A DNA stretch of 20,549 nucleotides from a virus. The translations under genes and the position numbers were made by a program. Shown here in pieces: positions 5,601 to 20,549 of the stretch. Numbering within the stretch: the stretch's first letter is position 1; each line of letters starts with the position of its first letter. A model generated the notes under the pieces. It did no database searches, was not told the DNA's origin, and saw only the letters and a list, made by a program, of their open reading frames with translations. The stretch spans positions 1 to 20,549 of the IMG/VR virus record IMGVR_UViG_3300008219_000139, one strand, 5' to 3'.

Positions 5601-8600
5601 TAATAAATTCTGTCAAATTGCTTGTTGTGGGAAACCACAATCAGGAGGAGGAGGCACCGACGCAGGAGTAAATTGTGACTGGAACGGAGGAACTGGAGTT
5701 CCTTGCCCAAGTGCTTTTTGGGCGAACAGGCATGATAGGGCGCGGTGTTGTGCGGAATTTGGTCCAGTCGAGGGGCCAGGCCTCATTGGGAGTTATTATT
5801 TACCCCCTGAAGAAGGCGGCGGACTCAAAGAAGGTTGTGAAAATTATTGTGGTAGATTTTCCACCGGCGGATGTGGCGGCTCTGAACATAATTCTGCTTG
5901 TTGGTCGGCTGGTGGTTGGCCTGGACCAGATTTCCACGAATGTGTGGACTGTCATGTGTGTCGGGAGTGCGATGGCACGGGGCTTGCCAACTGCGATGGT
6001 GACTTTGGGTGGCCACCACCATGCGATATATGGGAAGAGCCAGGTTGTCAAGGATCGGCAACTGGCAACTGTTATGACTGTCCTTGTATTGCTGGTTGTT
6101 GTTGTAATCAAGGCGAAACTCCACCTTGCAGCACTGTTGTTGCAGAGACACCAGTGGGAGTATGTTGTCAGGTAACTTATGATGTAGATGACGGCGTAGT
6201 ACCTACTTGTCGTACTACGACTCGTGAGGACTGCCCTGGCGGTGACTGCATTCTTGCGTTCCCTCGTGGAAACTGGAACCCGCTTGGAGGTCAGTTTGTT
6301 GGGTGCGGGGACATGCAGGGCGAGGATTCAGGTCACCCCACCTGCGGGGGCCTCTACGAAGAACATCATTGGCGTAGTCAGTGTTTCCCGTGGATTGTTC
6401 ACCACTCCGATCAAATGGGGGGTGTGTGTGACGATTTCCCCATAAATGTACCTCCTTGTGATGCCGAAGGGGACCCCCTCACGGCGTGTGGCCATTGCGA
6501 GTGCCCAAACCCGCATGATCCAGCATATCAGTGTGATGAAGAGAAATGTTGTGGTTGTGATCTCCCGCAGCGGTACTGCTTCAATTATTGCACTTATATA
6601 TGGGCGCACGGGGAAATCATAGAGAGAAGATGTTACAAGTCGATGGACCCGTCGTATCAGGGCGGCCTCGCAGGCGGCGGCATATCGATGGGCTTGATGA
6701 GGGAAATCCTTGGTGACTTTCAGGATCAGTACGACGAGGCATGGGTGGAACAATGCGGTCCTGCTCCATTGATGAACGCCGAGGGAGGGGGCTGCGATAT
6801 CGAGGAGGGGAACCTCGCAAAATGTTATCTGCGGAAGCCCAATCCCATCCCTGGCTACCAGTCTTGCGGTGGGCTCGACTGGCCAGTCGCGGGCCCTGAT
6901 GAGACATTCATGTGTAGTTGGGGTCTTCATATGTCCCCACAGCAGGCCTGCTGCATTAATTGTGCGATGTGGTTGTCTAATGAACAAGAGGGTGGTGTCA
7001 TTCATCAAGAATCGCCCATTACAATTATTGATCATGGAGATATATCTGCTACAATAGAAGGTAAGATTGATAATATGTCTTCGTTTATTAAAAGTCATAT
7101 AAATGAAAATGCTATATTTCCAGGCGATCTTGAAAGAGAAGCGTTATCAAAAGTGACAAGCAAATTATCTAGAGAAGCAAAGTATATGGTGGGTGGAAGA
7201 ACACCTTCTCGTTCACTTCGCCATTCAAATGATCCACATTTCCATCCAGTAATGCCTGCAAGTAAAGTACGCTTGTCAGGTATAATATGTTCTGATACTG
7301 GTTGTGAGAAAATAAATGATTATAATGATTATGTTTTGAAATATGGTTTACCAGAAAATGATGACGAATTTAAGAGATTTGTTCCAGCGATTCCAGATTC
7401 TGTTTATTCATTCCCAGATGGAGACAAAGAACATTTCTTGAAAATGCTTTTGGTTGGTAGTCATGGAATAAACAGATCTATGAACTTTGCAGAAATGTCT
7501 TCACTTCATGGAACATCAATAGAAAAGTTTAAATTGATGGCTCTTGCATATTCTGTTGAAAAGACTTTAACTGGATCAAATCCAGCAACAAAATATCCGT
7601 GGTTCCCTGTAAATAAGAATACAATACAAGCAGATAAAAATTATTGTCATTGTAATAGTACACATGACGATTATGAAATTGAGATTGCTGCGGTAAGATT
7701 CTTGGGAGAACATAATATTTCTAATCCTCTAGGAAACGGTAATTGTTTAGAGATTTCTGGTCCAAAGAATACAACACATCTTATTGGTACTGCTCTTGGT
7801 GGATCTGTGTCGGTGGGTGAATCTTGTGGTCGTTTCAATATAGAAAATTTACATAACTTAGAGTCTAAACCTATGTCTGATTCTAGTATAACAAAATCGA
7901 AGTCTTCTGGAAATATTGGAAGTTGTATGACACCAATGGGTGTTGTGATTGATTGTGAAGAAGATTATTGTAAAGAAGTATTGAATGGATCTTGGAGAGA
8001 GAAACTTTCGTTAAGAGATTCATATGAAGAAAGAAAACCATCAAACGAAACAACTGTTCATACCTATAAAAGTTCTGGTACATCAGAACAAAAAGGAGAA
8101 TTAACAACTATTAATACTTGTTGTCCGTGTGTGGATTGTTTATTGGATGCAATATGTGAACACGAATCGGGTGGTTGTAAATGTGAAAATGCTGATGGTT
8201 CTCCCGTTGTTAATCCTGACGATCCAAAACAATCATGTTCTGGTATTTGTGATTCCAATAAACCGTTGAATGATCCATATTGGAATGAGGTTGTGAACTG
8301 CAAGGGAGAGACATGTGTATCTAAGGGAACAAAAGACACAGATTGTAGAAAAAGAAAAGAACATTGTTGGTCGTGTGGACCAATGCAAATTAAAAAGGAC
8401 TTCTTTGATGATGCAAAATGGTCTTGCAGGGTTGAACCAAAATGTTGTGAACTCAAGAATTATAATTGGGGAAGTTTCTGTGATGGTAGTATGACTTGTA
8501 AAGAACTAAAAAGAATAAGCAAACTTGTTGCTGAATGTTATTATCGTCGATATACAAGAAACGGTGATTGTCAGTGTGCAGGAACTTGTACAGGAGAATG

Positions 8601-8859
8601 TGATGTTGTAAACACAGATTGTGATGAAGGAACTGGATGTTATACTTGTGAAGAATTGGCAAGAATGCATAACGGTGGTTCAGAATGGTGTAATAACCCT
8701 TCACTTACTGATGAATATGCTGATCTGGTGGCTGAGGCTTGGTGTGAACTGAGCGAAGAATGTCAAGATTGTTGTGAAGATGAAGGTTTGTGTAATTGCG
8801 ACCGTGTTATTGGAAATGAAGAAAAATTAAACCCACTTAGAGCAGATGAAGAGAAATAG
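2626..8859 (+). CDS. Giant Cys-rich fibre-like protein with C-terminal i-type lysozyme domain, 2077 aa
   Basis: Five regions can be read in order. Residues 13-53 are a collagen-like series of Gly-x-Thr triplets. Residues 54-366 are Gly/Thr/Ser-rich, probably beta-structured, nearly Cys-free, and look like a phage fibre module. Residues 367-1230 hold about ten modules starting G-x-C-C, each with 5-8 Cys, and the dense Cys continues to about 1446. Residues 1449-1831 are Cys-poor and more charged. Residues 1832-2065 carry the signature of i-type (destabilase) lysozymes: a C-E-H-E-S-G-G-C segment with Glu1847 as candidate catalytic acid, S-C-G-P-M-Q-I-K at 1916-1923, and A-R-M-H-N-G-G around His2015. 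By eye count the protein has about 170 Cys. I infer a virion appendage that binds the cell and cuts peptidoglycan during entry. In T4 the comparable virion lysozyme is part of baseplate gp5, a different fold. The lysozyme call is strong; the virion location is inferred from neighbours and fibre-like domains. Confidence 0.85.
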   Translation: MTGFTLSFHTSAITGITGPTGATGAEPTGATGPTGPTGATGATGATGTTGATGMTIVGTFFDDIETDGYWGIRFGVPNRDDIDEIQAIPRGAFTGPSGMVTGTTADVLTSGAGFTTIYEPTEITWASSSVHGPSGATLSFRTIGPSGDLRLYQDDANRLGTGATYWTLGISGPDAGSVYGTVVGSTGNIGYLVDKKNVKNAFGLTFTDTVTSEGTIGSTWGTISTRYVNHAEFYQVHGNPHTGTTSPFTIKTKDGNVHHIYAPFALSEITVDYPTNKAPIAYAPEWIDLSGTTAEYGESVNVTLIIDGGPGGISFSNKFYFNEDMKFTSGRDIINCLTYDKGNSWFCTVSGFGYNLPSDDDGTVSYGACCDAPPEGTGSCTEFVLESECPYEFFENMLCTSTPCGAEPAVGSCCINTDDNGDPFCVDSMPDGSPVLQSFCEAFGGVFRTVPCDPNYPCQDPCDPDIGEVGACCRFADNDQFITCSDLVSAFECSENPEGQYGIYQGDGTFCFDIDCCDSLDHSGACCCSDGECVGGTNPTDCLSGTSCFTGSGVYMGHGSVCPDDGGDINCECNENPEDMGMCCCPDCMPVPACYPSLGQGACKYLGGDWLQGGDCADPDDCDLPVIPTGACCHGPEGSITCSSVTEDQCNIDSGSYLGDDTICEGQCDEIAACCSWEGDCIDDLTYDDCFNIAGGDSWSYGNMCVDDYKCPPPPTGACCYNIDGSCAGSHHDYESCTNIPGWPPGSHTYQGDGTCCGEDECDNHVDCSTELYGGCCIYKGDGSEAEARSDLTEEDCAKLNDPCCQDPAPDIHREGWPSNKECWRCHWKGLLECGIVGQPQSVVSCLNFRCPPHMTLCTPTGEWDPGGDVRKHPIACKNYWLLWCPMDGDDFLGVDGLPGWQCDGAKNMNDFYDYYLNFFIEETNDQTCGAYCMGTPPYCYPDDDGAGCEWPYGVDNDNYDDWFRLHFGHASNNPGDWEFSQGDCIPNHEGYNKFCQIACCGKPQSGGGGTDAGVNCDWNGGTGVPCPSAFWANRHDRARCCAEFGPVEGPGLIGSYYLPPEEGGGLKEGCENYCGRFSTGGCGGSEHNSACWSAGGWPGPDFHECVDCHVCRECDGTGLANCDGDFGWPPPCDIWEEPGCQGSATGNCYDCPCIAGCCCNQGETPPCSTVVAETPVGVCCQVTYDVDDGVVPTCRTTTREDCPGGDCILAFPRGNWNPLGGQFVGCGDMQGEDSGHPTCGGLYEEHHWRSQCFPWIVHHSDQMGGVCDDFPINVPPCDAEGDPLTACGHCECPNPHDPAYQCDEEKCCGCDLPQRYCFNYCTYIWAHGEIIERRCYKSMDPSYQGGLAGGGISMGLMREILGDFQDQYDEAWVEQCGPAPLMNAEGGGCDIEEGNLAKCYLRKPNPIPGYQSCGGLDWPVAGPDETFMCSWGLHMSPQQACCINCAMWLSNEQEGGVIHQESPITIIDHGDISATIEGKIDNMSSFIKSHINENAIFPGDLEREALSKVTSKLSREAKYMVGGRTPSRSLRHSNDPHFHPVMPASKVRLSGIICSDTGCEKINDYNDYVLKYGLPENDDEFKRFVPAIPDSVYSFPDGDKEHFLKMLLVGSHGINRSMNFAEMSSLHGTSIEKFKLMALAYSVEKTLTGSNPATKYPWFPVNKNTIQADKNYCHCNSTHDDYEIEIAAVRFLGEHNISNPLGNGNCLEISGPKNTTHLIGTALGGSVSVGESCGRFNIENLHNLESKPMSDSSITKSKSSGNIGSCMTPMGVVIDCEEDYCKEVLNGSWREKLSLRDSYEERKPSNETTVHTYKSSGTSEQKGELTTINTCCPCVDCLLDAICEHESGGCKCENADGSPVVNPDDPKQSCSGICDSNKPLNDPYWNEVVNCKGETCVSKGTKDTDCRKRKEHCWSCGPMQIKKDFFDDAKWSCRVEPKCCELKNYNWGSFCDGSMTCKELKRISKLVAECYYRRYTRNGDCQCAGTCTGECDVVNTDCDEGTGCYTCEELARMHNGGSEWCNNPSLTDEYADLVAEAWCELSEECQDCCEDEGLCNCDRVIGNEEKLNPLRADEEK
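2662..2784 (+). repeat. Collagen-like Gly-x-Thr triplet repeats (9-nt DNA periodicity)
   Basis: The DNA repeats GGTGCAACT-like 9-mers and encodes G-P-T, G-A-T, G-T-T and G-I-T triplets over residues 13-53 of the 2077-aa protein, with one interruption (Ala-Glu-Pro). Such Thr-rich collagen-like tracts are known in phage fibres and in Bacillus spore-surface BclA, where they form trimeric rods. A trimeric stalk is therefore the natural inference. Confidence 0.9.
3724..6306 (+). repeat. Array of about ten diverged G-x-C-C cysteine modules
   Basis: Residues 367 to about 1227 of the 2077-aa protein repeat a pattern: G-x-C-C, a short acidic stretch with G-x-C, a further Cys after about seven residues, an aromatic-Gly element (Y/W-x-G-x-G), then one or two closing Cys. 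Module length varies from about 38 to more than 100 residues, and the modules after residue 800 are heavily expanded. There is little DNA identity between copies, so the array is old or under diversifying selection rather than a recent tandem duplication. I recall similar G-A-C-C repeats in secreted proteins of planctomycetes and other bacteria, but I cannot name a formal family. Confidence 0.75.
5650..6990 (+). other. GC-rich island inside the 2077-aa gene
   Basis: The bases rise in GC through this stretch. Row 6661-6720 has about 36 of 60 G/C, while the row at 7081-7140 has roughly a third. The drop near 6990 coincides with the end of the dense Cys region at residue 1446. Codon choice changes with it, with many GGC, CCC, CTC and GCG codons absent on either side. 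The reading frame is uninterrupted. Confidence 0.65.
8119..8820 (+). other. i-type (destabilase) lysozyme domain, C-terminus of the 2077-aa protein
   Basis: i-type lysozymes cleave the beta-1,4 bond between N-acetylmuramic acid and N-acetylglucosamine and are best known from invertebrates. Several family hallmarks are seen in order here: Cys-x-x-Cys then I-C-x-x-E-S-G-x-C near residue 1847, S-C-G-P-x-Q-I-K followed by an aromatic-Asp stretch (1916-1932), a helix with Y-x-R-R-Y, and C-x-x-x-A-R-x-H-N-G-G followed by Cys (to 2022). The usual domain is about 120 residues. This one spans about 230, with extra Cys-bearing loops, notably about 68 residues between E-S-G-G and S-C-G instead of a few dozen or fewer. 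Glu1847 fits the catalytic acid. The second catalytic Asp cannot be assigned by eye (Asp1857 or Asp1865 are candidates). Confidence 0.88.
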
Positions 8860-8893: not shown

Positions 8894-11800
8894 ATGAGTA
8901 TCCAGTTTAGAACACGATCCAAAGGATGGTCAATCGATCCAACATTGCTACAAGGTGCATGTTGTAAAGATGGTGAGTGTCTTGGTCCTTTTTATAATCC
9001 ATTTGAATGTGCAGCAGCAGATGGGGAGTGGATGGGAAATGGTATAAACTGCAACGATATTGATTGTGCAGAAGGTAGCCGAGCCGCTTCTGTTGTGGGT
9101 TCGTGTTGTATTAATGGTTTTTGTTATGCAATTGATGAGGAGAAATGTAATTGTAGGGGTGGAGTATATCTAGGAACAGGTATTGATTGTGTTCAAGCAG
9201 ATTGTTGTGGAGTTAATTTACCATCAAATACTAGTACTTCCACAATGGCATGTTGTTATGATGGTGGAACTTGTAGAGATTTATCTCCATGTGAATGTTT
9301 AGAAACAAAGGGTGTTCCAAGAGGACCTGGTACGAGTTGTTCAACACATGATTGTCAGTTAACAGGTCTTACTGCTTCTTACCGTGGTGCATGTTGTATA
9401 GATGGATATTGTAAAGGACCAACAGGAGAATCTCACGAAACATATGCTCAGTATGGTTATACTGCTGGTGATTGTGTAGTACTTGGTGGTATTTTTGGTG
9501 GGTCGGGAAGTACTTGTGGAAGTAATCATGAAACTATAAGTGGTATTACTTGGCCTTGTTCCTTCCCAAGAGGATCATGTTGTTTTGGAACTGCTCCATA
9601 TGATGGTGTTTTATATTGTGGTGATGGTCATACTTGTGGAAGTTGTTTGAATCCAGTGGGAGCAGGTGGTAGTGGTGGACAGAACTGGGTTAGGGGTTTA
9701 ACCTGTGGTGATGTTATTGACGATCATGGTGGTTGGTGGGATGGAACCAGATGTTATGTAGAAGAATTTGAAACAGGATCTTGTTGTGTTCCAAATTATT
9801 ATGAATCTTCTGATGGTAGTAGAACTTTTATTGAAAACTATAATTGTCTTGATGATATCACAATTAACAACTGTGAAAGGTTGGGAGGACTCTTTAAAAG
9901 TTATACTGAAAATGTAGGTGTTTCTGGCCCACCTGAAATTAAAAGATATCTTCAGCGAGGTCAACATCCAGGCACATGTCGTGATAAACAGGATATATCT
10001 ACATTAACAGAACAAGACATGATTCGTGCATATGCAGGAATATACAAGATAAGTGGAACAAATATTTGGCCTCAAAATGGTGGGGTGCCAGGCCCGATGG
10101 ACCATGAGGGCTTTTCTCAGTTGTACTCGATAGGAGACGGCCCAGAGCGAGATAAACCAAAAAATGTCAATTTCATTCAACTCAATTATAAAGAGACTGG
10201 ACACCCCACGGGGTATGGTTGTCCTTCTTCAGATCCATCAGGAGAAGGATGTGAAAGAGACTTTAGAGATTTTTATGAATTATGTAAATCTATCGGAAGT
10301 GGAAAAATACGAATACAGCATGTTAGTGATCAACCATTCTCAACAGATGAGTATGCTTCTGACCTCACACCAGGCGATGGGCGAAAGGTCTGGGCAGAGT
10401 GGAAATATAATGATGTGAAAAATCCATTGGGACATACGAATGTATTTAGTTTTCAAGATTTAGACTATATTGACGGATCTAATGATGGTGAAATTTTCTT
10501 TGAAACTTCTGCTTGGTGTAGATGTAGAAACTGTCCAGGCTGGGGTAATTGTGAAGGAGATCCAGGCTGTAATTGCGATTTGGGCCACCCACACTATTGT
10601 TCGCCCTATTGTGGCTGCCCCTCGGCCGAGGGAACAGGAACGGATGGAGCGAATTGTTGTACTCGTCAACCAGCGTGGTACTACCATGTTTATATTATAC
10701 CAGATGAGGGGGGTATACCGTTTGATGAACTTCGATGTGCGGATGGTTTAGATTGTTGTGAAAGATATGAAGAAGACGAAGAAACAAGATGTTCCCAAGG
10801 ACCAGAAGGCGCATGTTGTTCTTTTGACAACGATGGCAAATATATTAATTGTGTTCAAAGTACACTTCTGGATTGTGATTTATTGGGTCAAAGCAATCCT
10901 TCTATTAATACATTTTTCCACGAAGAAGAAGAATGTAGTGAAGAAATTTGTGTTGATGAGGGGGTTGGTTCTGATAGAAATATAGCAAGATCTTGCTGTA
11001 GGTGGAAAAAAAGTAATGGAAAATATCTTGGGTGTTTTAGTCAAGAAGATTGCTCTCCTAGACAAGATGAAATTATTAGACATTTTAATGAACCGTGTTC
11101 TTCTCTGAAGGATAAGTGTCGATCTATAGAAATTGGAGCGTCTGTAAACAAATCCGTAAAGACTTCTAATAGATCATTAATAAGTAATGTAAACATAAAT
11201 TCAACAAATAAATGTTTAGATTCTAGAGATACCAACTATAAAATAAACAAGGATTCAGAGGTTCTTGATTATACAACTTCTATTACCAACACATTACCAA
11301 GTTCTATTGCAACGAAAATCACAGATCCTCATATGTTTGATTGTGAAACTTGTGGATCTTCGTTCAACAGAAACAGAGGAAATTGTTTTTGGCAATCCAC
11401 ATTATTAGAAAATAGAACTGCTGAAGAATGTTTAGAAATTGGTGGAGTATTTGATGGTTGTTTAGGAAGACCATACGAGACAGTCTTTGAATCGTTGGGT
11501 GGAAGGCGATCAGAAAACATTCCTGACGCAACAGCACAAAAAAACGAAAGTAATTTCAATAGATCACAAACTACTGGAACTTCTGGAACTTTAGGTGCTT
11601 GTTGTATAGCACAGAATGCAACAGATGTAACAAAAAGATCATGTCAAATAACAACTGATGCTGGTTGTTGGAATTTACAAGAAACTCTTAGTTTACCAAC
11701 CACATGGTTAGGACCAGGAACTGTTTGTGGTGATTGGAATTCGACCTATGGTTATCAAGAATGTATGGCTAATACATTTGCTTGTTGTTGCTCGGATGAA

Positions 11801-14800
11801 AGCAACACAATAATTGCAAAATATAGTGATGATTCAACACGATTGTTCTCTTGTTTGCAGATAAGTGAGTATGAACAAACTCAATATGGTTCCTGTGATA
11901 ATAGCGGTCAAATAGGGTCTGATGGTTTGGTGTGTGGTGGTTCTGGAACTGTTGGTAAGTTGGGTTCAAATTGTGTAGATAATTATTCGGGTGAGTGGGA
12001 TAAAGATTCAACAGACGGAATAGCAGACAATTGTATGCTTGGTGATAATCTTCGTGGAGCATGTTGTAGTTGTGTTGGTTGGTGTGATGGTGAATTTAAT
12101 ACAAACACCGAAAAGGATTATAGACCAGGACCACCTTGGGCAGAGTCCGAAGTTGCCTGTGGCTTTGGTACTTCGAGTGATCCGCTATCAACAGCATATC
12201 CCATGTGTTATGATTCATTAACAGAAGACGAGTGTTTAGCAAAAACAGAATATTGGAGAACACACCCAACAGATGCTAAACCAGATGTTGAATTTACATG
12301 GTTAGGACCAAAATCTAAATGTACTCATTCTGGTTTTGAAAATTATGGTGATTATGAAACAGTAGTATCAGTTGATCCAGATGGTGTTTCAAATAACTTT
12401 AGTGGATGTCTTGCTGGTTGGGCGTGTGGATCGAAGGATACTTCACCATTCTATTGTGGTGGTTCCAACGATGAACCAGACTGTAAAGGATTCCCAGGCT
12501 ATGCAGTAAATGGTGTGTCTGAAACTTGGATTAAGTGGAAATCGCCACACAATATATTTAATAATAATTGTGTAGGTAGGGATGGAATATTAAATGAAAG
12601 TTGTTTAGAAGATTCAGCGTCTTGGATAGTTAGAAACTTCTACGCAACTGATGGTTGTTATGGTGATTCTCCCTTTGAAGATTCATATCCAGTTTTGACT
12701 AATAATAATATTGATGCTGCTGGTTGTCCTTTCTGTAATGCTGCTAGTATATCACCGTCTGATTGGAATAGTTTAGATTATGCTAATTTAAGAAATTCAT
12801 ATTTCCGTTTGGGTTTTGATCATACAACTGGACCAGCAATGTGTGACGAACTTGGTAGGACATCTTATATTGATTTGTCTGATGGAACTACAGTTTCGTC
12901 ATCAGGATCATTTGGTTCTTGCTGTATAAACGGAACATGTCATAGATGGCCAGAAAAAGTTTGTGTAGAAGAACTTGGTGGTGTTTATATTAAAGATGGT
13001 GTTTGTAATGGTGTGTCATGTCCAACAAATTCTGGATTGTGTTTACTGTGTTCAGGACATTCAGCCGTTCCTGAAAATATAAAAGATGAACTTCCATGTT
13101 GTGCTGGATGGATAGACGATCAAACTAATTGTGATAAAATTGGAGGGAAGTGGTTCCCCACGGGAATTGAAAAATTAGAAGAGTTCTGTTCTAGTAATCA
13201 ATGTAATAATAAGAAAAATTTCAATATATTAGAAAGTGATGCCGTTGTTGGTGGATCTTCTACGATAAAATCTACTACTTTGGTTTCCGACGATTCGGTT
13301 AGTAAAGATTTTGCAACAGAAGAACCGCATTCAAACTGGAATCCTTGTTTATGTGGATGTTGTTTGGATGGTAATACCTGTTATGATACCGAAAGTTGGT
13401 ATGAGTGCGAAGCAGCGGGCGGAAACTGTTGGCATCATGGAACTGGTTGTGAAGGGGGAGGGTGTGAATCTTCAACAGAAAATGAAACAACACCCAATTC
13501 TAGAAACGAAGTTAATTATGAATATACAGAGTCGTGGATGCCTCCAAGTGGTAATATTAAGTATGAAAAATTCATCGATGGATGGCAATTAGGATTCAAG
13601 GATTCTATGGTTCCGTTCTTAGGATTTAAAAATATATTTGAAGCACCAATTTTAAATGATCATTCTCAATGTCCATTTGCGGCAATACCAAATCAAGTAT
13701 ATTACAAAACTTCCGATAGTGGAATTCCTTTTCCTCTAGATCCAACCAGTTTCCAGTATATACAAGGAAGGGGAGATAATAAACTTCTTATAGGTAAAGA
13801 TCCAAGGGTAAGTAGAAAATATTGGAATTCTATTAAGAATGATGTTAAAGAACTTTGGTTGACAAGATATTATCCAACACCAGACAATTCTTTGAGTTCA
13901 ACAAATATTTTAGAACCATATTTCATTAGTAAATTACATACCAGAACAGTTCCAATGTTAAAAACTTTGGTAATAAATCCCGCAAGGTATGGAAATGGTA
14001 GAAAGGTTCCAAACTTTCCTGATTCTTGGGGTAGTTGTTCTTTACATTCCTGTAATAATTGGAAATCTTCTTACGGTAGTGGATATCATCTTTCTAATGA
14101 CTTAACAGCAATAAATTCAACATTAGAGACTCTTGTTGCTGCGGATTCTAGTATTGATTCTGGAATAAGTTACTTAAAACTTCATAATTATTCAAAACTA
14201 AAGAATCTTTATATTCACAACAATTCATTATCAATTCTAGACCTTAAGAACTTAAAATCTTTAGAAAATCTTTGGGTTCAAAATAATAATTTAGGAAATT
14301 CTTCTGCTATAATTGCAAATTCTGGTTTAATGAAACAGGATAGTTTACAAGTAGATGAATATTCTTCAACCATAAAAACAATATATGCACAGAACAATAA
14401 ACTAAAAACACTTAGTGATAAGAAAAATATTAGTCTTCCTAAATTGGTAGTTTTGGATATTTCTCATAATAATATTAGTAATCTTTCGTTTAATGCTCCA
14501 TCATTAAAATATCTCAACGCAAGTGGTTGTAATCTTTCTGGTTCGGTAAACATAGGATCACCGAATTCTCTAGAAGAAATAATATTTGATTCTGTTTCGT
14601 TGAATAGTTTTACTATAGGAACCAAAAATAACAGACCAATAAATCTTAGATCACTAAGAATATCAGGATCAAATCTTGCTGTTCTAAATTGTGGTATTGA
14701 AAAGACAAATAAATATTCTGGCAACATGATGAATAATTTAGAATATATTAGTTTATCAAACAACCCAAGATTAAGAACCTTAATTTTACCATCACCGTCA

Positions 14801-15169
14801 AATTCTGAATCGGGTGTTGTTGGAAGATATCCCCGCTATATTGATGTTAATTCAACTTTATTAGATGACAGTTTCTTAGAACAAGCAGCATTTTCTCCCA
14901 ATGGGTATCCTGATGGACATTTATTAGAAGTTTCTCTTGTAGGAACTCGTATTTCAAAAGAAGCGATTGATAGATTAGTAGAGTTGTGGGATTCACATGA
15001 CAATAAACATATTTTAGTGGCTGGTTATAGAGGATTTGAAGATCCTGTCACTGATGTTTCGCGGGAAACGGATGCACGAACTCAGGGTAGTGAATCAATA
15101 ATAAGTAGAACAAGAAGAACTTCTGATGGATCTACTAGAAGTTCTGGTGGAATGTCAAGTAATTACTAA
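8894..15169 (+). CDS. Giant Cys-rich protein with C-terminal leucine-rich repeats, 2091 aa
   Basis: The start is ATG 8894 with AGGA at 8884-8887, six nt upstream; the stop is TAA just before 15170. The G-x-C-C modules begin only 21 residues in. They recur about a dozen times up to roughly residue 1530, many in the compact 38-45-residue form, separated by longer inserts (for example 330-590 and 700-880). Residues 1530-1735 are a Cys-poor, aromatic-rich linker domain. Residues 1740-2035 are leucine-rich repeats with typical L-x-x-L-x-[LI]-x-x-N-x-[LI] cores. The tail (2050-2091) is Ser/Thr/Arg/Gly-rich and ends in Tyr. There is no signal peptide, membrane segment or enzyme motif. Its length and plan resemble the 2077-aa neighbour, so the two look like partners or distant paralogues with different C-terminal effectors. 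I infer a virion surface protein whose LRR domain binds a host ligand. Confidence 0.82.
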   Translation: MSIQFRTRSKGWSIDPTLLQGACCKDGECLGPFYNPFECAAADGEWMGNGINCNDIDCAEGSRAASVVGSCCINGFCYAIDEEKCNCRGGVYLGTGIDCVQADCCGVNLPSNTSTSTMACCYDGGTCRDLSPCECLETKGVPRGPGTSCSTHDCQLTGLTASYRGACCIDGYCKGPTGESHETYAQYGYTAGDCVVLGGIFGGSGSTCGSNHETISGITWPCSFPRGSCCFGTAPYDGVLYCGDGHTCGSCLNPVGAGGSGGQNWVRGLTCGDVIDDHGGWWDGTRCYVEEFETGSCCVPNYYESSDGSRTFIENYNCLDDITINNCERLGGLFKSYTENVGVSGPPEIKRYLQRGQHPGTCRDKQDISTLTEQDMIRAYAGIYKISGTNIWPQNGGVPGPMDHEGFSQLYSIGDGPERDKPKNVNFIQLNYKETGHPTGYGCPSSDPSGEGCERDFRDFYELCKSIGSGKIRIQHVSDQPFSTDEYASDLTPGDGRKVWAEWKYNDVKNPLGHTNVFSFQDLDYIDGSNDGEIFFETSAWCRCRNCPGWGNCEGDPGCNCDLGHPHYCSPYCGCPSAEGTGTDGANCCTRQPAWYYHVYIIPDEGGIPFDELRCADGLDCCERYEEDEETRCSQGPEGACCSFDNDGKYINCVQSTLLDCDLLGQSNPSINTFFHEEEECSEEICVDEGVGSDRNIARSCCRWKKSNGKYLGCFSQEDCSPRQDEIIRHFNEPCSSLKDKCRSIEIGASVNKSVKTSNRSLISNVNINSTNKCLDSRDTNYKINKDSEVLDYTTSITNTLPSSIATKITDPHMFDCETCGSSFNRNRGNCFWQSTLLENRTAEECLEIGGVFDGCLGRPYETVFESLGGRRSENIPDATAQKNESNFNRSQTTGTSGTLGACCIAQNATDVTKRSCQITTDAGCWNLQETLSLPTTWLGPGTVCGDWNSTYGYQECMANTFACCCSDESNTIIAKYSDDSTRLFSCLQISEYEQTQYGSCDNSGQIGSDGLVCGGSGTVGKLGSNCVDNYSGEWDKDSTDGIADNCMLGDNLRGACCSCVGWCDGEFNTNTEKDYRPGPPWAESEVACGFGTSSDPLSTAYPMCYDSLTEDECLAKTEYWRTHPTDAKPDVEFTWLGPKSKCTHSGFENYGDYETVVSVDPDGVSNNFSGCLAGWACGSKDTSPFYCGGSNDEPDCKGFPGYAVNGVSETWIKWKSPHNIFNNNCVGRDGILNESCLEDSASWIVRNFYATDGCYGDSPFEDSYPVLTNNNIDAAGCPFCNAASISPSDWNSLDYANLRNSYFRLGFDHTTGPAMCDELGRTSYIDLSDGTTVSSSGSFGSCCINGTCHRWPEKVCVEELGGVYIKDGVCNGVSCPTNSGLCLLCSGHSAVPENIKDELPCCAGWIDDQTNCDKIGGKWFPTGIEKLEEFCSSNQCNNKKNFNILESDAVVGGSSTIKSTTLVSDDSVSKDFATEEPHSNWNPCLCGCCLDGNTCYDTESWYECEAAGGNCWHHGTGCEGGGCESSTENETTPNSRNEVNYEYTESWMPPSGNIKYEKFIDGWQLGFKDSMVPFLGFKNIFEAPILNDHSQCPFAAIPNQVYYKTSDSGIPFPLDPTSFQYIQGRGDNKLLIGKDPRVSRKYWNSIKNDVKELWLTRYYPTPDNSLSSTNILEPYFISKLHTRTVPMLKTLVINPARYGNGRKVPNFPDSWGSCSLHSCNNWKSSYGSGYHLSNDLTAINSTLETLVAADSSIDSGISYLKLHNYSKLKNLYIHNNSLSILDLKNLKSLENLWVQNNNLGNSSAIIANSGLMKQDSLQVDEYSSTIKTIYAQNNKLKTLSDKKNISLPKLVVLDISHNNISNLSFNAPSLKYLNASGCNLSGSVNIGSPNSLEEIIFDSVSLNSFTIGTKNNRPINLRSLRISGSNLAVLNCGIEKTNKYSGNMMNNLEYISLSNNPRLRTLILPSPSNSESGVVGRYPRYIDVNSTLLDDSFLEQAAFSPNGYPDGHLLEVSLVGTRISKEAIDRLVELWDSHDNKHILVAGYRGFEDPVTDVSRETDARTQGSESIISRTRRTSDGSTRSSGGMSSNY
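8954..13470 (+). repeat. Array of about a dozen G-x-C-C cysteine modules in the 2091-aa gene
   Basis: Modules are seen from residue 21 (G-A-C-C) to residue 1489 (C-G-C-C) and its closing Cys near 1530. The compact form is clearest at the N-terminus and at the end: G-x-C-C, G-x-C, a Cys after about seven residues, G-G-x-[WYF]-x-G-x-G, C, then C four to five residues later. They share no long DNA identity with each other or with 3724-6306. Confidence 0.75.
14111..15000 (+). other. Leucine-rich-repeat domain, C-terminus of the 2091-aa protein
   Basis: LRR cores are seen at residues 1769 (L-K-N-L-Y-I-H-N-N), 1827 (I-K-T-I-Y-A-Q-N-N), 1851 (L-V-V-L-D-I-S-H-N-N), 1949 (L-E-Y-I-S-L-S-N-N) and 2010 (L-L-E-V-S-L-V-G-T), with weaker copies between. 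Spacing is irregular at 20-30 residues. LRR solenoids are protein- or glycan-binding platforms; the ligand is unknown. The DNA here is AT-rich like the rest of the phage. Confidence 0.85.
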
Positions 15170-15177
15170 AATCCCTA

Positions 15178-15206
15178 TTGACTAGAGATATATACTATGG
15201 TATGAT
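15178..15206 (+). promoter_or_regulatory. sigma70-like promoter before the 156-aa gene
   Basis: TTGACT (15178-15183), a 17-bp spacer, then TATGAT (15201-15206): five of six matches in each hexamer at ideal spacing. It falls in the 66-nt gap between the 2091-aa gene and the 156-aa gene. Transcription would start near 15213, before the GGAG ribosome binding site (15226-15229). If real, it would drive the 156-aa gene and perhaps gp13-gp17. No T4-type late TATAAATA element was found in the gap. Confidence 0.5.
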
Positions 15207-15235: not shown

Positions 15236-15706
15236 ATGTCTGAAGAAAAGAAATCTATTAGTGAAAAAATTAAAATGGCTAAGAGTTATGCACAAGCAAT
15301 AATTTCTAGAGGAATTACAAACAAAAAAACAGATAAACTTACAAAACAATTACGAGTAATTAGTTGTTTTGGTGATGGTGGTGAACTTATTCCTTGTGAA
15401 TATTTAGCAAAGAGTAAAACTGATGACACTAAGAATATTTGTGGTGGCTGTGGATGTGGTGATAGAAAAGGAACTTGGCTACAAACAGAAGGCGAAGAAT
15501 ATAGTAAACTAGATTACCCCAATTTAAATTGTCCCCTTCAAATGCCTGGGTTCACTAATTATGAACAAAGTGCGATTGATGAAGCAGAAGAACCAGTTAC
15601 CAGAAGATATTATATCGAAGAAATGGAACAGGATAGGGTTGAAAAGGTTGAGGTTTCTTTACCAGAAAAACCAGAAAAACCAAAACCAAAAGAAAGCAAA
15701 GAATAG
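15236..15706 (+). CDS. Small protein with CxxCxC cluster, 156 aa (unknown function)
   Basis: The start is ATG 15236 with GGAG six nt upstream; the stop is TAG 15704-15706. The N-terminal 40 residues are Lys-rich and probably helical. The middle holds six Cys (44, 54, 69, 72, 74, 99), including an I-C-G-G-C-G-C-G cluster followed by D-R-K-G-T-W-L and, later, N-C-P-L-Q-M-P-G-F. The C-terminus (from about 140) is a Lys/Pro/Glu low-complexity tail. The Cys spacing would suit zinc or iron-sulfur binding or a redox role, but no family is recognised. It sits between the Cys-rich cassette and gp13, has its own promoter-like sequence, and is followed by a hairpin that covers the gp13 ribosome binding site. 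It could assist assembly of the Cys-rich proteins, but nothing shows this directly. Confidence 0.75.
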   Translation: MSEEKKSISEKIKMAKSYAQAIISRGITNKKTDKLTKQLRVISCFGDGGELIPCEYLAKSKTDDTKNICGGCGCGDRKGTWLQTEGEEYSKLDYPNLNCPLQMPGFTNYEQSAIDEAEEPVTRRYYIEEMEQDRVEKVEVSLPEKPEKPKPKESKE

Positions 15707-15715
15707 CCATTTATA

Positions 15716-15766
15716 ATTCTCCTTACCTGCCATTGTTATACATATTATGGGGTAGGTAAGGAGAAT
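15716..15766 (+). promoter_or_regulatory. 16-bp hairpin occluding the gp13 ribosome binding site
   Basis: Bases 15716-15731 pair with 15751-15766 as 16 consecutive pairs (one G-U, at 15729/15753) around a 19-nt loop. The 3' arm contains the gp13 Shine-Dalgarno AAGGAG (15758-15763), eight nt before the ATG at 15772, so it is fully base-paired when folded. No U-run follows, so it does not look like an intrinsic terminator. Likely roles are translational attenuation, where gp13 is made only when the stem is opened or absent, or an RNA processing site separating gp13 from the upstream message. Confidence 0.75.
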
Positions 15767-15771
15767 ATTGT

Positions 15772-16572
15772 ATGTCCAATCCAAATTCAGTTGATACTCT
15801 TATAGATTATGCTTTTAGGCGACTTGGTTCGCCTGTTGTTGATATTAATGTAGATAGGCAACAAGCAGTAGAAAGAGTAGATGATGCGTTGGATATGTTT
15901 GCAGAAAGACACTTTGACGGTGTTGAGAGACACTACTATAAACATTCTGTAACTAGTGATGATATAACTAATGGGTATATTAACACCAGTGGTTTAACTG
16001 CTGGTGCGGGCTATACTGCTGCTCCAGGCGGATCAAATATATTAGCAGTAACAAAGGTTGTTCCTTTTGGTGGTAATGTAAATAGTATGTTTAATATTAA
16101 ATATCAAATGTCGTTAAATGATTATTTTGGAATAAACAGAAATCTTCATTATAGTTCTGCTCTTGGTATGGCAAGTTATGATTCAACAAAACGATTTATA
16201 AGTTTGGTTCAACAAATGTTTGATCCTGAAAAAATGATTCGTTTTAATAAAGTATCAAATAAGTTATTTATTGATATGGATTGGAGTGCGGATGTTGATG
16301 CTGGTGATATTTTAGTAATTGAAGCATATTCAAAAATAAATGCAAATGCTAATCCTGAAATATTTAATGATAAACTTTTAAAAGAATATGTGACAGCATT
16401 ACTCAAACGACAATGGGGTTCTAATTTATCAAAATTTGAAGGGGTACAGTTGCCAGGCGGTGTTACAATTCGAGGAGCAGAATTATTTACTGAAGCAAAC
16501 GAAGAAGTTATAAGAATTGAAGAAAAGATTCAACTGGAATATGAGTTACCAATCGATTTTATGATTGGATAG
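15772..16572 (+). CDS. 13: T4-like neck protein gp13, 266 aa
   Basis: T4 gp13 helps form the neck at the portal vertex after DNA packaging, allowing the tail to join. The N-terminus matches the family in marine T4-like phages: an L-I-D-Y-x-x-R-R-L-G-x-P-V-V-x-I-N-V-D segment followed by a helix with E-R-V-D-D-A-L-D and the H-Y-Y-K-H strand. The T4 protein is about 309 aa; this shorter form is usual for marine relatives. The start is set by AAGGAG at 15758-15763, which lies inside a hairpin. The stop TAG is four nt before the gp14 ATG. The order gp13-gp14-gp15-gp16-gp17 confirms the assignment. Confidence 0.9.
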   Translation: MSNPNSVDTLIDYAFRRLGSPVVDINVDRQQAVERVDDALDMFAERHFDGVERHYYKHSVTSDDITNGYINTSGLTAGAGYTAAPGGSNILAVTKVVPFGGNVNSMFNIKYQMSLNDYFGINRNLHYSSALGMASYDSTKRFISLVQQMFDPEKMIRFNKVSNKLFIDMDWSADVDAGDILVIEAYSKINANANPEIFNDKLLKEYVTALLKRQWGSNLSKFEGVQLPGGVTIRGAELFTEANEEVIRIEEKIQLEYELPIDFMIG

Positions 16573-16576
16573 TAAT

Positions 16577-17500
16577 ATGGCTAGAAATAAGTATTTTCGA
16601 GACTATAGCGGTGAGCAAGACGCCGTAGAAGATCTTACCATTGAAGTTATAAAAACAATGGGTAGGGATATGATATACATTCCTCGCGAAATTGTTACAA
16701 AAGATAAACTTTTTGGAGAAGACACATTATCAAAATTTGATGATGGTTATCATCTAGAAATGTATGTTCAGTCGGTTGATGGGTTTGAGGGCGAAGGTGA
16801 TATTATATCACGGTATGGTTTAGAGATACGAGATAGAATGGAATTAATCGTATCACGAAAAAGATTTACAGAAGATGTAACCACATATGAAGGAATTGAT
16901 CGACCAAGAGAAGGCGATTTAGTTTATTTTCCATTAAGTGGTACTTTGTTTGAGATTAATTTTGTGGAACACGAAAACCCATTTTATCAATTGGGCGCCC
17001 TTTATACTTACAGATTATCTTGTGAAGTCTTCAGTTATTCGGAAGAACAAGAATTTGATACTGGAATTACTGTTATCGATAAGGTAGAAGATGATAGAAA
17101 AGAATATGCAATTAAACTTACTTTGGGCAATAAACTCAGCACTGCAACAGATTATATTCTTGGAGAAAGTATATTCCAAGTATCTGGAGCAACTGGTGGT
17201 ATATACTCGGATGCTAGTGTTACTGGTGTTGTTGTTGATTGGGATGCCACAAATAAGGCTCTAACGGTTGGTGATCTTTCTGGAACTCTTTCTACTGGAA
17301 GCACTACAGATAGCGTTATGGGAACTCAGTCTACAGCAGAATATGAACTTACTAGCACTACGGAAACAACAACAATTATTATTAAGGAACCAGAAGATGG
17401 TGACATCATGGGTGATAATGAAGATATAGAATTCATTAGTGATTCAGATAATATCTTTGACTTTACAGAGACAGATCCTTTCTCAGAGGGTAACTATTAA
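16577..17500 (+). CDS. 14: T4-like neck protein gp14, 307 aa
   Basis: gp14 acts with gp13 in head completion and neck formation. I chose ATG 16577 (M-A-R-N-K-Y-F), four nt after the gp13 stop, rather than the in-frame TTG at 16565, which overlaps gp13 and lacks a ribosome binding site. The family pattern is visible: E-D-L-T-I-E-V-I-K-x-x-G-x-D-M-x-Y-I-P-R near residues 17-38, and later the P-F-Y-Q-L-G and Y-R-L-S-C-E-V-F-x-Y-S segments. From about residue 195 to 275 there is a Gly/Thr/Ser-rich, probably beta-structured insertion absent from T4 gp14 (about 256 aa) and, as I recall, common in marine relatives. The acidic tail ends at TAA 17498-17500, which shares one base with the gp15 ATG. It has no clear Shine-Dalgarno, so translation is probably coupled to gp13. 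Confidence 0.9.
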   Translation: MARNKYFRDYSGEQDAVEDLTIEVIKTMGRDMIYIPREIVTKDKLFGEDTLSKFDDGYHLEMYVQSVDGFEGEGDIISRYGLEIRDRMELIVSRKRFTEDVTTYEGIDRPREGDLVYFPLSGTLFEINFVEHENPFYQLGALYTYRLSCEVFSYSEEQEFDTGITVIDKVEDDRKEYAIKLTLGNKLSTATDYILGESIFQVSGATGGIYSDASVTGVVVDWDATNKALTVGDLSGTLSTGSTTDSVMGTQSTAEYELTSTTETTTIIIKEPEDGDIMGDNEDIEFISDSDNIFDFTETDPFSEGNY

Positions 17501-18411
17501 TGTTTACTTCATATTACAATGAATCTATAAGAAAAGTAGTAGTTGCTTTTGGTTCTCTGTTTAATAATATACAGTTAAAGAAAACGAACAGTAGTGGTGT
17601 TGTTGAATACCATAGGGTTCCTTTATCATATGGTCCAAAAGAGAAATTCTTAAGAAGAATAGAACAGCAAAGTTCTATATCAAATTCAACAAAGGTTTTA
17701 ATTACACTTCCAATATTAGGATTTAATATTACAGATATTTCTTATGATGGTGGTAGAAAAAGAAATACAATTCAGAGAAGAAGAAATCATGTTGCGGGTG
17801 GATCTGCTGAGTATATGAGGTATAACTACACTGAAGTTCCATATAATTTTAATATATCGTTATATGGTTTTGTTAGACACATGAACGATTCTCTTCAGAT
17901 AATGGAACAAATTTTACCATACTTCACACCTGAGTTTAATGTTACTATTAATTTTAATGATGTTCATAAGAAGGTTGATATTCCTATTATATTAAATACA
18001 GTATCAATGGAAGAAGACTATGAAGGTGAGTTTGATACCAGAAGAAACATAACAACTGAGTTTTCTTTTACAGTTAAAGGAAATGTATATGGACCGATTA
18101 AGAAAAATCATGTTATTGCATATACAGAAACAACATTCTTTAATTTGTTTGATGAACAATGGTCGTCGAGTGGGCCAACTGGTGCTATGTCTAGAATTGA
18201 TGTCGGTATTAGTGGTGCTTCTTTAGATACTACACTTGGAATTGCTGGAGCGTCTATTAGTGATTACACAACATATACAAATATATATTCTGCTGGTACA
18301 AGTGGTACAACAGGTGGTGATCCTGGCGGAACATATGGATGGACACATATAGATACTTATGGTAATACTTATTATGGTGCATATAGATATCCACCTGCAC
18401 CAAATGAATAA
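17500..18411 (+). CDS. 15: T4-like tail sheath stabiliser and completion protein gp15, 303 aa
   Basis: gp15 forms the ring that caps the tail tube and sheath and joins the tail to the neck. Matches to T4 gp15 include the start F-x-x-Y-Y-N-x-S-I-R, then L-F-N-N-I-Q-L-K-K, R-V-P-L-S-Y-G-P-K-E-K-F near residue 45, and M-E-Q-I-L-P-Y-F-T-P-E-F-N near residue 138. The T4 protein is 272 aa. This one has an extra C-terminal tail rich in Gly, Thr, Ser and Tyr (about 225-303) that may be flexible or beta-structured. The ATG overlaps the gp14 stop by one base (TAATG), and AGAGGG lies nine nt upstream, giving tight translational coupling. Confidence 0.92.
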   Translation: MFTSYYNESIRKVVVAFGSLFNNIQLKKTNSSGVVEYHRVPLSYGPKEKFLRRIEQQSSISNSTKVLITLPILGFNITDISYDGGRKRNTIQRRRNHVAGGSAEYMRYNYTEVPYNFNISLYGFVRHMNDSLQIMEQILPYFTPEFNVTINFNDVHKKVDIPIILNTVSMEEDYEGEFDTRRNITTEFSFTVKGNVYGPIKKNHVIAYTETTFFNLFDEQWSSSGPTGAMSRIDVGISGASLDTTLGIAGASISDYTTYTNIYSAGTSGTTGGDPGGTYGWTHIDTYGNTYYGAYRYPPAPNE

Positions 18412-18422
18412 TGGGGAATTGA

Positions 18423-18914
18423 ATGAGCAATAAAAAAACAACAAATGAAAAAATATCAGAAGCATTAGATGTTGAGTATGATTCGGATGAATCTATTATT
18501 AAAAAAGAAGACAATCTTCCTGTTGTAAAAAAAGAAACAAACAAAGACTTACCGAAGGACTATGATGAGGTCAGGGGTAATTTAAAAGATCTAATTGATA
18601 CTGGAAAAAGTGCAATCGATGGAATTTTGAATGTTGCCTTAGACAGCGATTCTCCAAGAGCATATGAAGTTGCTGCTCAAATGATAAAAACTGTATCTGA
18701 AGCAAATAAAGATTTGATTGGTTTACACAAGCAAATGAAGGACATTAATAAAGAGGAAGTCACTATCAACACAAACACAACAAATGCTTTGTATGTTGGG
18801 TCTACTTCTGATCTTCAAGACTTGATTAATCAATCTAGAAGTGCCAAAAAAGTACTTACTCAAAAGTATAATGATATTATTGATGTTGAAGCGGAGGAAG
18901 TAGATGACGACTAA
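18423..18914 (+). CDS. 16: Small terminase subunit gp16, 163 aa
   Basis: gp16 forms a ring that recognises phage DNA and regulates the large terminase at the start of packaging. The length is nearly that of T4 gp16 (164 aa). Order and motifs agree: D-Y-D-E-V-R-x-N-L, then a long helix with D-S-D-S-P-R-A-Y-E-V near residue 78, the second helix ending L-I-G-L-H-K-Q-M-K-D-I, and the Y-V-G-S-T-S-D-L segment near residue 122. The N-terminal 35 residues are charged and variable. GGGGAA at 18413-18418 sits five nt before the ATG. The gene overlaps gp17 by 11 nt. Confidence 0.93.
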   Translation: MSNKKTTNEKISEALDVEYDSDESIIKKEDNLPVVKKETNKDLPKDYDEVRGNLKDLIDTGKSAIDGILNVALDSDSPRAYEVAAQMIKTVSEANKDLIGLHKQMKDINKEEVTINTNTTNALYVGSTSDLQDLINQSRSAKKVLTQKYNDIIDVEAEEVDDD

Positions 18915-20549
18915 GAAGATTGGATATCTTGGCAATCCAAACTTAAAGGCGGGTGGCGTTGAACTTGAATTTACAAAAAAGCAAGTTCAAGAATATATTA
19001 AATGCTCTCAAGATCCATCATATTTTATCCAAAAATATATTAAAGTAGTATCTTTGGACGAGGGCTTAGTTCCTTTTAATCTTTATGATTATCAAAAAGA
19101 GATAGTAGATATAATTCACAATAATAGATTTGTTATTGCAAAATTACCAAGACAGTCTGGTAAGTCTACCACTGTTGTTGCTTATATTTTACATTATATT
19201 CTTTTTAATCAGAGCATGAATGTTGCTATTCTTGCTAACAAACAAGCAACTGCAAGAGAAATTCTTAGTAGATTAAAATTAGCATACGAATATTTACCCC
19301 TCTGGTTACAACAAGGTATTATTGAGTGGAATAAAGGATCTGTTGAATTAGAAAACGGATCTAAGATCGTAGCGTCTTCTACTTCTGCATCTGCAATTCG
19401 TGGTGGTTCATTCAATATGATTTTTCTTGATGAATTTGCCCATGTCCCTCAAAATATTGCAGAGGAATTCTTTAGTTCTGTATATCCAACAATTACTTCT
19501 GGTCAAACAACTAAAGTTCTTATGGTTTCAACCCCGAATGGACTTAATATGTTCTATCATTATTGGAGAGGTGCTACAAAAAAAGTAGGAGAAGAAGGAA
19601 AGAATGAATATGTTCCAATTGAAGTTCATTGGCAACAAGTTCCTTTATATCCAGGCGGTCCTCTTAGGGGAGAAGAGTGGAAAAAAGAAACAATAAGAAA
19701 TACAAGTGAACAACAGTTTCAATCAGAATTCGAATGTGATTTCATCGGTTCACAAAATACTTTAATCAGTTCGTATAAATTAAAATCATTAGCGTGGATT
19801 ACTCCTATAGTTAAGAATCAAGAAGGTCTTTCTATATACGAAGAACCAAAAGAAGGACATGTTTATGTTTGCACTGTTGATACAGCACGAGGACAGGGAT
19901 TAGATTATAGTGCTTTTTGTATAGTTGATATATCAGATCCACCATATAGAGTTGTTGCAAAATATAGAAACAATATAATCTCTCCTATGGTATTTCCAAC
20001 AGTAATTAAGAGACTATGTGAACAATATAATAGTGCATTTGCTTTAATTGAAATTAATGACATCGGTGGCCAGGTTGCAGATGTTCTTCATGAAGATCTA
20101 GAATATGAACATGTTCTCATGTGTGCAAACAAGGGGAGGAAAGGCCAAACTATAAGTGGTGGATTTGGTTCTGGAGGAATTCGTTTTGGTGTTAGAACAA
20201 CAACAGTTGTTAAGAAATTAGGATGTTCAGTCCTTAAAAGCCTTGTGGAGGAAGATAAACTAATCATAGAAGATATGGATATTGTAAACGAATTGACCAC
20301 ATTTGTTGCAAAAAAACAATCATATGAAGCAGATGATGGTCATAATGATGATCTTGTTATGTGTTTAGTCCTTTTTGGTTGGTTGACGAGACAAGAGTAT
20401 TTTAAAGATTTAACAGATGTTGATACTAGAACTGAAATATATGAAAAGAAAATACATGAATTGGAAGAAGAGATGTCTCCGTTTGGTATTATTGTCAGTC
20501 CAGAGGACGAAGAAGTTACTGGTGTGTGGGACGGAGAAGATCGGTGGTA
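18904..20549 (+). CDS. 17: Large terminase subunit gp17 (ATPase and nuclease), 3'-truncated by window edge
   Basis: gp17 docks on the portal, cuts concatemeric DNA and pumps it into the head using ATP. The ATG at 18904 lies inside the end of gp16, six nt after a strong GGAGG (18893-18897). The frame stays open to the window's end, giving 548 complete residues; T4 gp17 has 610, so about 50-60 are missing. The ATPase domain shows Walker A L-P-R-Q-S-G-K-S-T at about 81-89, Walker B M-I-F-L-D-E-F (172-178, Glu177 catalytic) and the coupling motif S-T-P-N-G. The nuclease domain shows Asp326 (T-V-D-T-A-R-G), Glu383 (L-I-E-I-N-D) and the late H-N-D-D at 480-483, matching the T4 Asp/Glu/Asp metal-binding set. 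All key residues are present. Confidence 0.96.
   Translation, partial: MTTKKIGYLGNPNLKAGGVELEFTKKQVQEYIKCSQDPSYFIQKYIKVVSLDEGLVPFNLYDYQKEIVDIIHNNRFVIAKLPRQSGKSTTVVAYILHYILFNQSMNVAILANKQATAREILSRLKLAYEYLPLWLQQGIIEWNKGSVELENGSKIVASSTSASAIRGGSFNMIFLDEFAHVPQNIAEEFFSSVYPTITSGQTTKVLMVSTPNGLNMFYHYWRGATKKVGEEGKNEYVPIEVHWQQVPLYPGGPLRGEEWKKETIRNTSEQQFQSEFECDFIGSQNTLISSYKLKSLAWITPIVKNQEGLSIYEEPKEGHVYVCTVDTARGQGLDYSAFCIVDISDPPYRVVAKYRNNIISPMVFPTVIKRLCEQYNSAFALIEINDIGGQVADVLHEDLEYEHVLMCANKGRKGQTISGGFGSGGIRFGVRTTTVVKKLGCSVLKSLVEEDKLIIEDMDIVNELTTFVAKKQSYEADDGHNDDLVMCLVLFGWLTRQEYFKDLTDVDTRTEIYEKKIHELEEEMSPFGIIVSPEDEEVTGVWDGEDRW

Follow-up and report, generated by a model that had tools for sequence, protein, structure and literature searches.

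We propose, with considerable confidence, that the neck protein gene gp13 of an uncultured T4-like phage is controlled by a T4-type translational lock, a hairpin covering its ribosome binding site, which would be bypassed by a late promoter situated in the hairpin loop. Read-through RNA arriving from upstream, as expected from a sigma-70-like promoter before the gene at 15236-15706, would carry both arms of the hairpin; on this RNA the arms would fold, the Shine-Dalgarno sequence (SD) of gp13 would be hidden and gp13 would stay untranslated. The phage late polymerase, with a gp55-type sigma factor as inferred from T4, would start at TATACATA in the loop, and gp13 would be translated from the resulting late RNA, which begins near 15750, because the 5′ arm is missing there.

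Results

The gp13-gp17 gene block

The 20,549-base window, by which we mean the whole stretch of DNA analysed, is the complete IMG/VR record IMGVR_UViG_3300008219_000139, and its gp13-gp17 genes, recognised by PHROGs and Pfam, identify the phage as T4-like and uncultured. No isolate of the lineage was found in the collection searched, the identities reaching at most 44% for gp13 and 59% for TerL among 50,697 phage records. A contig from another sample (L033), which ends short of gp13, encodes a TerL 100% identical to that of the window, and the phage thus recurs. The genes of this block lie on the plus strand. gp13 (15772-16572; neck protein, head-tail adaptor Ad2; PHROG 211, E 2.6e-35) is followed by the neck protein gene gp14 (16577-17500; PF11649, E 1.1e-37), which starts 4 nt past the gp13 stop, and by gp15 (17500-18411; tail sheath stabiliser, PF16724), gp16 (18423-18914; small terminase subunit, PF11053) and gp17 (18904-20549; large terminase subunit, PF03237 and PF17289), which continues beyond the record end. 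In the list of open reading frames (ORFs) gp15 and gp17 each overlap the preceding gene. Judging from gene spacing alone, it is plausible that the gp13 lock would time the whole gp13-gp17 block through coupling.

Two giant ORFs of the window (2626-8859, 2077 aa; 8894-15169, 2091 aa) are, by eye, packed with short Cys-rich repeats; the first begins with a collagen-like G-x-T stretch and the C-terminal end of the second contains apparent leucine-rich repeats, both also seen by eye. The leaders of the window genes at 985 (960-984) and 2626 (2590-2625), TATAGGGTAAGGAAC and TATGGGATAAGGAAC, resemble the gp13 leader TATGGGGTAGGTAAGGAG and perhaps represent a common start region.

A hairpin buries the gp13 Shine-Dalgarno sequence

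Arm pairing and RNA folding delimit a 5′ arm at 15716-15731 and a 3′ arm at 15751-15766 of the plus strand. They form 16 pairs with no mismatch, 15 Watson-Crick and one G-U at 15729/15753, around a 19-nt loop (15732-15750). A sequence-only reading of this DNA had described a near-perfect 16-bp hairpin at 15716-15766, beginning nine nt after the upstream stop codon and burying the ribosome binding site of gp13. All three points are borne out: the upstream stop codon has its last base at 15706, and the SD AAGGAG (15758-15763, plus strand), 8 nt ahead of the ATG at 15772, lies entirely within the 3′ arm. Folding of 15700-15800, which the same reading had proposed as a check, gave -26.5 kcal/mol (z -2.9), a stability equalled by 1 of 200 dinucleotide shuffles, and the predicted mean unpaired probability of the SD on long RNA was 0.001.

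The stem length by itself is only modestly unusual, as 3 of 100 dinucleotide-shuffled versions of the complete window somewhere contain an ungapped Watson-Crick hairpin with an equal score (13); the inverted repeats listed for the window include no second one of such length within 60 nt. These shuffles leave some room for a chance inverted repeat, which we nevertheless regard as extremely improbable because the stem sits on the SD with a late promoter in its loop and recurs with other arm sequences in relatives. Rfam returned four chance-level matches to microRNA families, all under the gathering score, and a tRNA search nothing relevant. An RNA thermometer or riboswitch was sought through Rfam only; the promoter in the loop gives a simpler switch. 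That the arm might be a mobile repeat was rejected, the pattern GGTAGGTAAGGAGA being present in 93 viral_contigs stretches and the opposing arm in none of the 80 checked.

A candidate late promoter in the loop

The octamer TATACATA (15737-15744, plus strand) in the loop is of the T4 late promoter type and departs from the T4 late promoter TATAAATA at one base. Late promoters of cyanophages are given as NATAAATA in PMC2984593. According to PMC2988020, T4 late boxes start at -13 and span -13 to -6, roughly a helical turn upstream of the start; a late box at -13 places the predicted transcription start at 15750 on the plus strand, one base ahead of the 3′ arm. RNA starting at 15750 carries no part of the 5′ arm. 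The computed cost of opening the SD was 15.6-16.3 kcal/mol when the RNA began at 15716 or earlier, and for later 5′ ends it was 10.3 at 15720, 2.6 at 15726 and 1.6 kcal/mol at 15750. One relative, L052, is an exception, as its late RNA keeps a computed structure of 11.9 kcal/mol over SD and ATG.

The sequence-only reading had suggested that gp13 would be silent on read-through transcripts and active if the stem was opened, cleaved or bypassed by an internal start. Silence on read-through RNA with activation by an internal start is the reading best supported by the loop promoter and the covarying arms described below, and the opened and cleaved routes would be unneeded. We reject its further suggestion that transcripts starting between the arms would speak against the switch: given a late promoter between the arms, such transcripts would be the expected ON state.

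Elsewhere in the clade, TTATACATA occurs 11 times in nine viral records (0-3 each), usually once and mostly at gp13. Many other late-type sites in the same nine records are TATAAATA, whereas gp13 keeps the C variant.

Upstream gene and candidate source of read-through RNA

The gene preceding gp13 (15236-15706, plus strand) encodes a conserved protein of 156 aa, an adjacent homolog of which is found in 94 of 153 related loci; it had no match among the 50,697 phage records and none in Pfam or PHROGs. Its middle is Cys-rich (CGGCGCG). A sigma-70-like promoter at 15178-15206 of the plus strand (TTGACT-17-TATGAT, with TG before the -10; 1.5% of 200 shuffles as good) is a candidate source of read-through RNA, and the terminator scan lists no terminator between it and gp13. 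Sigma-70-like promoters better than 95% of shuffles precede the upstream gene in 15 of 31 testable TATACATA loci, none being detected in the other 16, and in 21 of 90 loci overall, compared with 2 of 90 in a control scan before gp13. Locks were present in 48 of 94 loci with the upstream gene versus 9 of 59 without it, a difference to which common ancestry contributes. HTVC008M, whose gene upstream of gp13 has the opposite orientation, has no lock (gain -0.6).

Conservation and covariation of the lock in relatives

A blastn search with 15600-16600 returned just five weak phage records, so that isolates were unusable for covariation. Relatives' loci were obtained by protein similarity searches with gp13 and TerL and from isolate and single-cell records, and were pooled with loci from an arm-pattern search. 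The resulting 344 loci were reduced to 212 with a gp13 match near its start, then to 172 non-redundant 110-nt leaders and finally to 153 with a promoter-like octamer, 83 of which have exactly TATACATA (39) or TATAAATA (44) before gp13. The 5′ flank native to each locus was tested against foreign flanks, and a lock was called when at most 3 of 60 swaps were as good and the gain was -6.5 kcal/mol or lower, a criterion chosen after the data were seen.

By this criterion 19 of the 39 TATACATA loci, the window counted, have a lock. In the swap control, the statistics of which ignore phylogeny, as do those of the lock and lock/terminator tests, 57 of 153 loci had at most 3 of 60 foreign flanks as good, where about 9 are expected. 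When the native flanks were ranked by plain duplex energy against those of all other loci, 30 of 153 fell in the best 1% (1.5 expected), namely 18 of 39 TATACATA loci, 9 of 44 TATAAATA loci and 3 of the remaining 70. Clustering of gp13 at 85% identity gave 99 clusters, 18 representatives of which stood at or below 1% in the swap control; independent locks were found in 41 clusters and argue against a chance repeat, as do the swap control and the placement of the stem over the SD with a conserved promoter enclosed.

Several loci combine the octamer in the loop with differing arm sequences (e.g. L052, L044, L066, L079, L339 and L092). A MAFFT alignment of 17 locked TATACATA leaders put the arms out of register, and pairs were tabulated per sequence from minimum free energy (MFE) folds anchored at the SD. 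At offsets -2, -4 and -7 from GGAG we counted 5, 4 and 6 pair types, with all four Watson-Crick types at -4, whereas SD pairs showed 1 or 2. These loci were selected for having a lock and the paired fraction is therefore not independent evidence; the swap controls are. G-U pairs are present in several relatives' stems. The inverted repeat could alternatively act as DNA, as a palindromic operator around the promoter-like octamer that it flanks. We consider this highly improbable: a protein site would keep its sequence, but here the arms vary while their complementarity stays, and the 3′ arm follows the SD or the ATG rather than the distance to the promoter. The pair pattern is that expected of an RNA helix rather than of a sequence-specific operator.

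Stems of the relatives have between about 13 and 25 bridging pairs, and some have moved onto the start codon. This variation bears on a processing site for RNase III or a similar enzyme, at which cleavage would free the SD and set the 5′ end of the gp13 mRNA. A long and nearly perfect intergenic stem within one transcript would suit such a site, with nothing specific to it; a processing site gives no reason for the varying length or for the move, and the loop promoter would yield a free SD without cleavage. Processing is accordingly a very unlikely explanation, and we retain the translational lock.

Arm conservation and covariation in related phages had also been put forward as a check, and pairing is indeed kept with covarying arms. 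The exceptions are the seven closest relatives by gp13 (68-72%: L206, L061, L343, L036, L050, L038 and L207), which fail the lock criterion, and this missing strong lock is the other point in favour of chance. Two of them (L343 and L036) have a strict terminator, L061 has a terminator by eye, and in the rest the SD is paired more weakly or the pairing is with the start codon. A comparable gp13 lock is absent from all 20 leaders of isolates or single cells, 15 having an SD opening cost of at most 6.6 and 5 being without a recognisable SD. The T4-type phages L366 (RB32) and L370 (Ac42) carry a GC-rich hairpin in the interval from wac to gene 13, where it does not cover the SD.

Among the gene starts of five long contigs, 59 have a late-promoter-like octamer, as listed by a crude gene caller that mis-started gp13 of G003 and left gp13 of G005 unlisted. 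A gain of -13 was reached by two: gp13 of G002 and a start in G005 with a hairpin ahead of its SD. Near 14351 on the minus strand of G005:C1 (L359), arms ATTAGGATCGTAT and ATACGACCTAAT surround TATAAATA before a 509-aa gene; this hairpin lies at the promoter, ahead of the SD, and does not hide the ribosome binding site.

Terminators and other devices before gp13

Part of the evidence could be explained if the hairpin was mainly an intrinsic terminator before gp13, with the loop promoter restarting transcription late and the hiding of the ribosome binding site as a by-product. Among 49 lock loci, 23 have TTTT between SD and ATG, versus 5 of 77 others, and in the TATAAATA class the figures are 14 of 18 versus 0 of 22; moreover, in no TATACATA locus does a lock coincide with a separate strict terminator. 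However, the window stem lacks a U-tract, being followed by ATTGTATG, and is absent from the terminator scan, so that it does not qualify as an intrinsic terminator; TTTT is absent from 10 of the 19 TATACATA locks, and the 3′ arm is invariably on the SD or the start codon. We therefore judge a mainly terminating role unlikely and favour the translational lock, while roughly half of the locks, those with a U-tract and not that of the window, may terminate too.

A strict intrinsic terminator lies directly upstream of the promoter in 7 of 39 TATACATA loci, none of which passes the lock test, and four further loci have a terminator by eye (L061, L300, L222 and L080). The 39 loci thus comprise 19 with a lock only, 7 with a strict terminator only, none with both and 13 with neither, an exclusion (Fisher 0.008) that is partly built in, since flank terminators and locks compete within the folding score. 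Duplex complementarity is weaker in the terminator loci (7 strict and 4 by eye; Mann-Whitney 0.003), and L326 and L106 run contrary to this trend, with duplex-energy fractions of 0.01 and 0.02. One gp13 cluster at 85% identity contains both L317 and L223, with a terminator, and L098, with a lock.

The reverse complement of the start pentamer occurs upstream in 28 of 172 leaders (3.8 ± 1.7 in shuffles). It overlaps the promoter in 19 cases, and in 13 of these 19 the next base pairs too (T-A, A-T and C-G seen). Such leaders would hide the start codon. In L210, L212, L301, L297, L090 and L097 the ATGGC start region can pair with the left end of the promoter (GCCATAAATA, GCCATGTTATACATA), and the adjoining base frequently shows matching changes as well; a promoter of this kind would double as a start-codon lock.

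A broader reading, to which we give slightly less than an even chance, is that a late gate on gp13 is kept by selection while its parts turn over fast. The gate would be an SD lock, a start-codon lock with a 5′ arm overlapping the promoter, a terminator, or a combined element that is at once a terminator for upstream polymerase, a read-through lock and a late promoter, and these devices would substitute for one another even between close relatives.

Discussion

The proposed gp13 lock is a known type of T4 switch at a new, operon-leading gene. PMC3014915 describes the same anatomy of a hairpin on the ribosome binding site at T4 e, soc, 49 and I-TevI and gives a 100-fold effect at e. As predicted here, the long RNA of e, soc and 49 folds over the SD; their late promoter falls within the 5′-strand region, and late RNA is therefore without that strand. 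The gene concerned here is instead gp13, at the head of the neck and packaging block, the octamer is TATACATA, no isolate represents the lineage in the searched collection, and covariation is seen across many sequences. For I-TevI, I-TevII, I-TevIII, segB and Aeh1 mobE, PMC2988022 likewise describes a ribosome binding site hidden on early or middle RNA and freed by a late promoter just upstream, a bypass that is predicted for gp13; the endonuclease hairpins serve mobile elements, whereas gp13 is an essential virion gene. The lock also resembles intrinsic terminators before late genes, such as those just before the promoter in some TATACATA loci, in insulating the gene from upstream RNA, but terminators act on transcription and the window stem has no U-tract. 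Such a lock at a neck gene was not found in the open-licence literature searched, and the available portion of PMC3037559 makes no mention of hairpins or gp13.

A classical T4 control, known from a lysis gene, a capsid decoration gene and mobile endonucleases, would thereby reach the gene that leads the neck and DNA-packaging block, in a phage group known here from metagenomes only, and the results add covariation evidence from many sequences to the T4-type switch. Prediction of late promoters in pelagimyophages was reported unsuccessful in PMC7029224; a late promoter inside a lock would provide a sequence signature by which late genes of uncultured T4-like phages could be called. With the gp13 lock it also becomes testable why neck or terminase proteins must not be made early.
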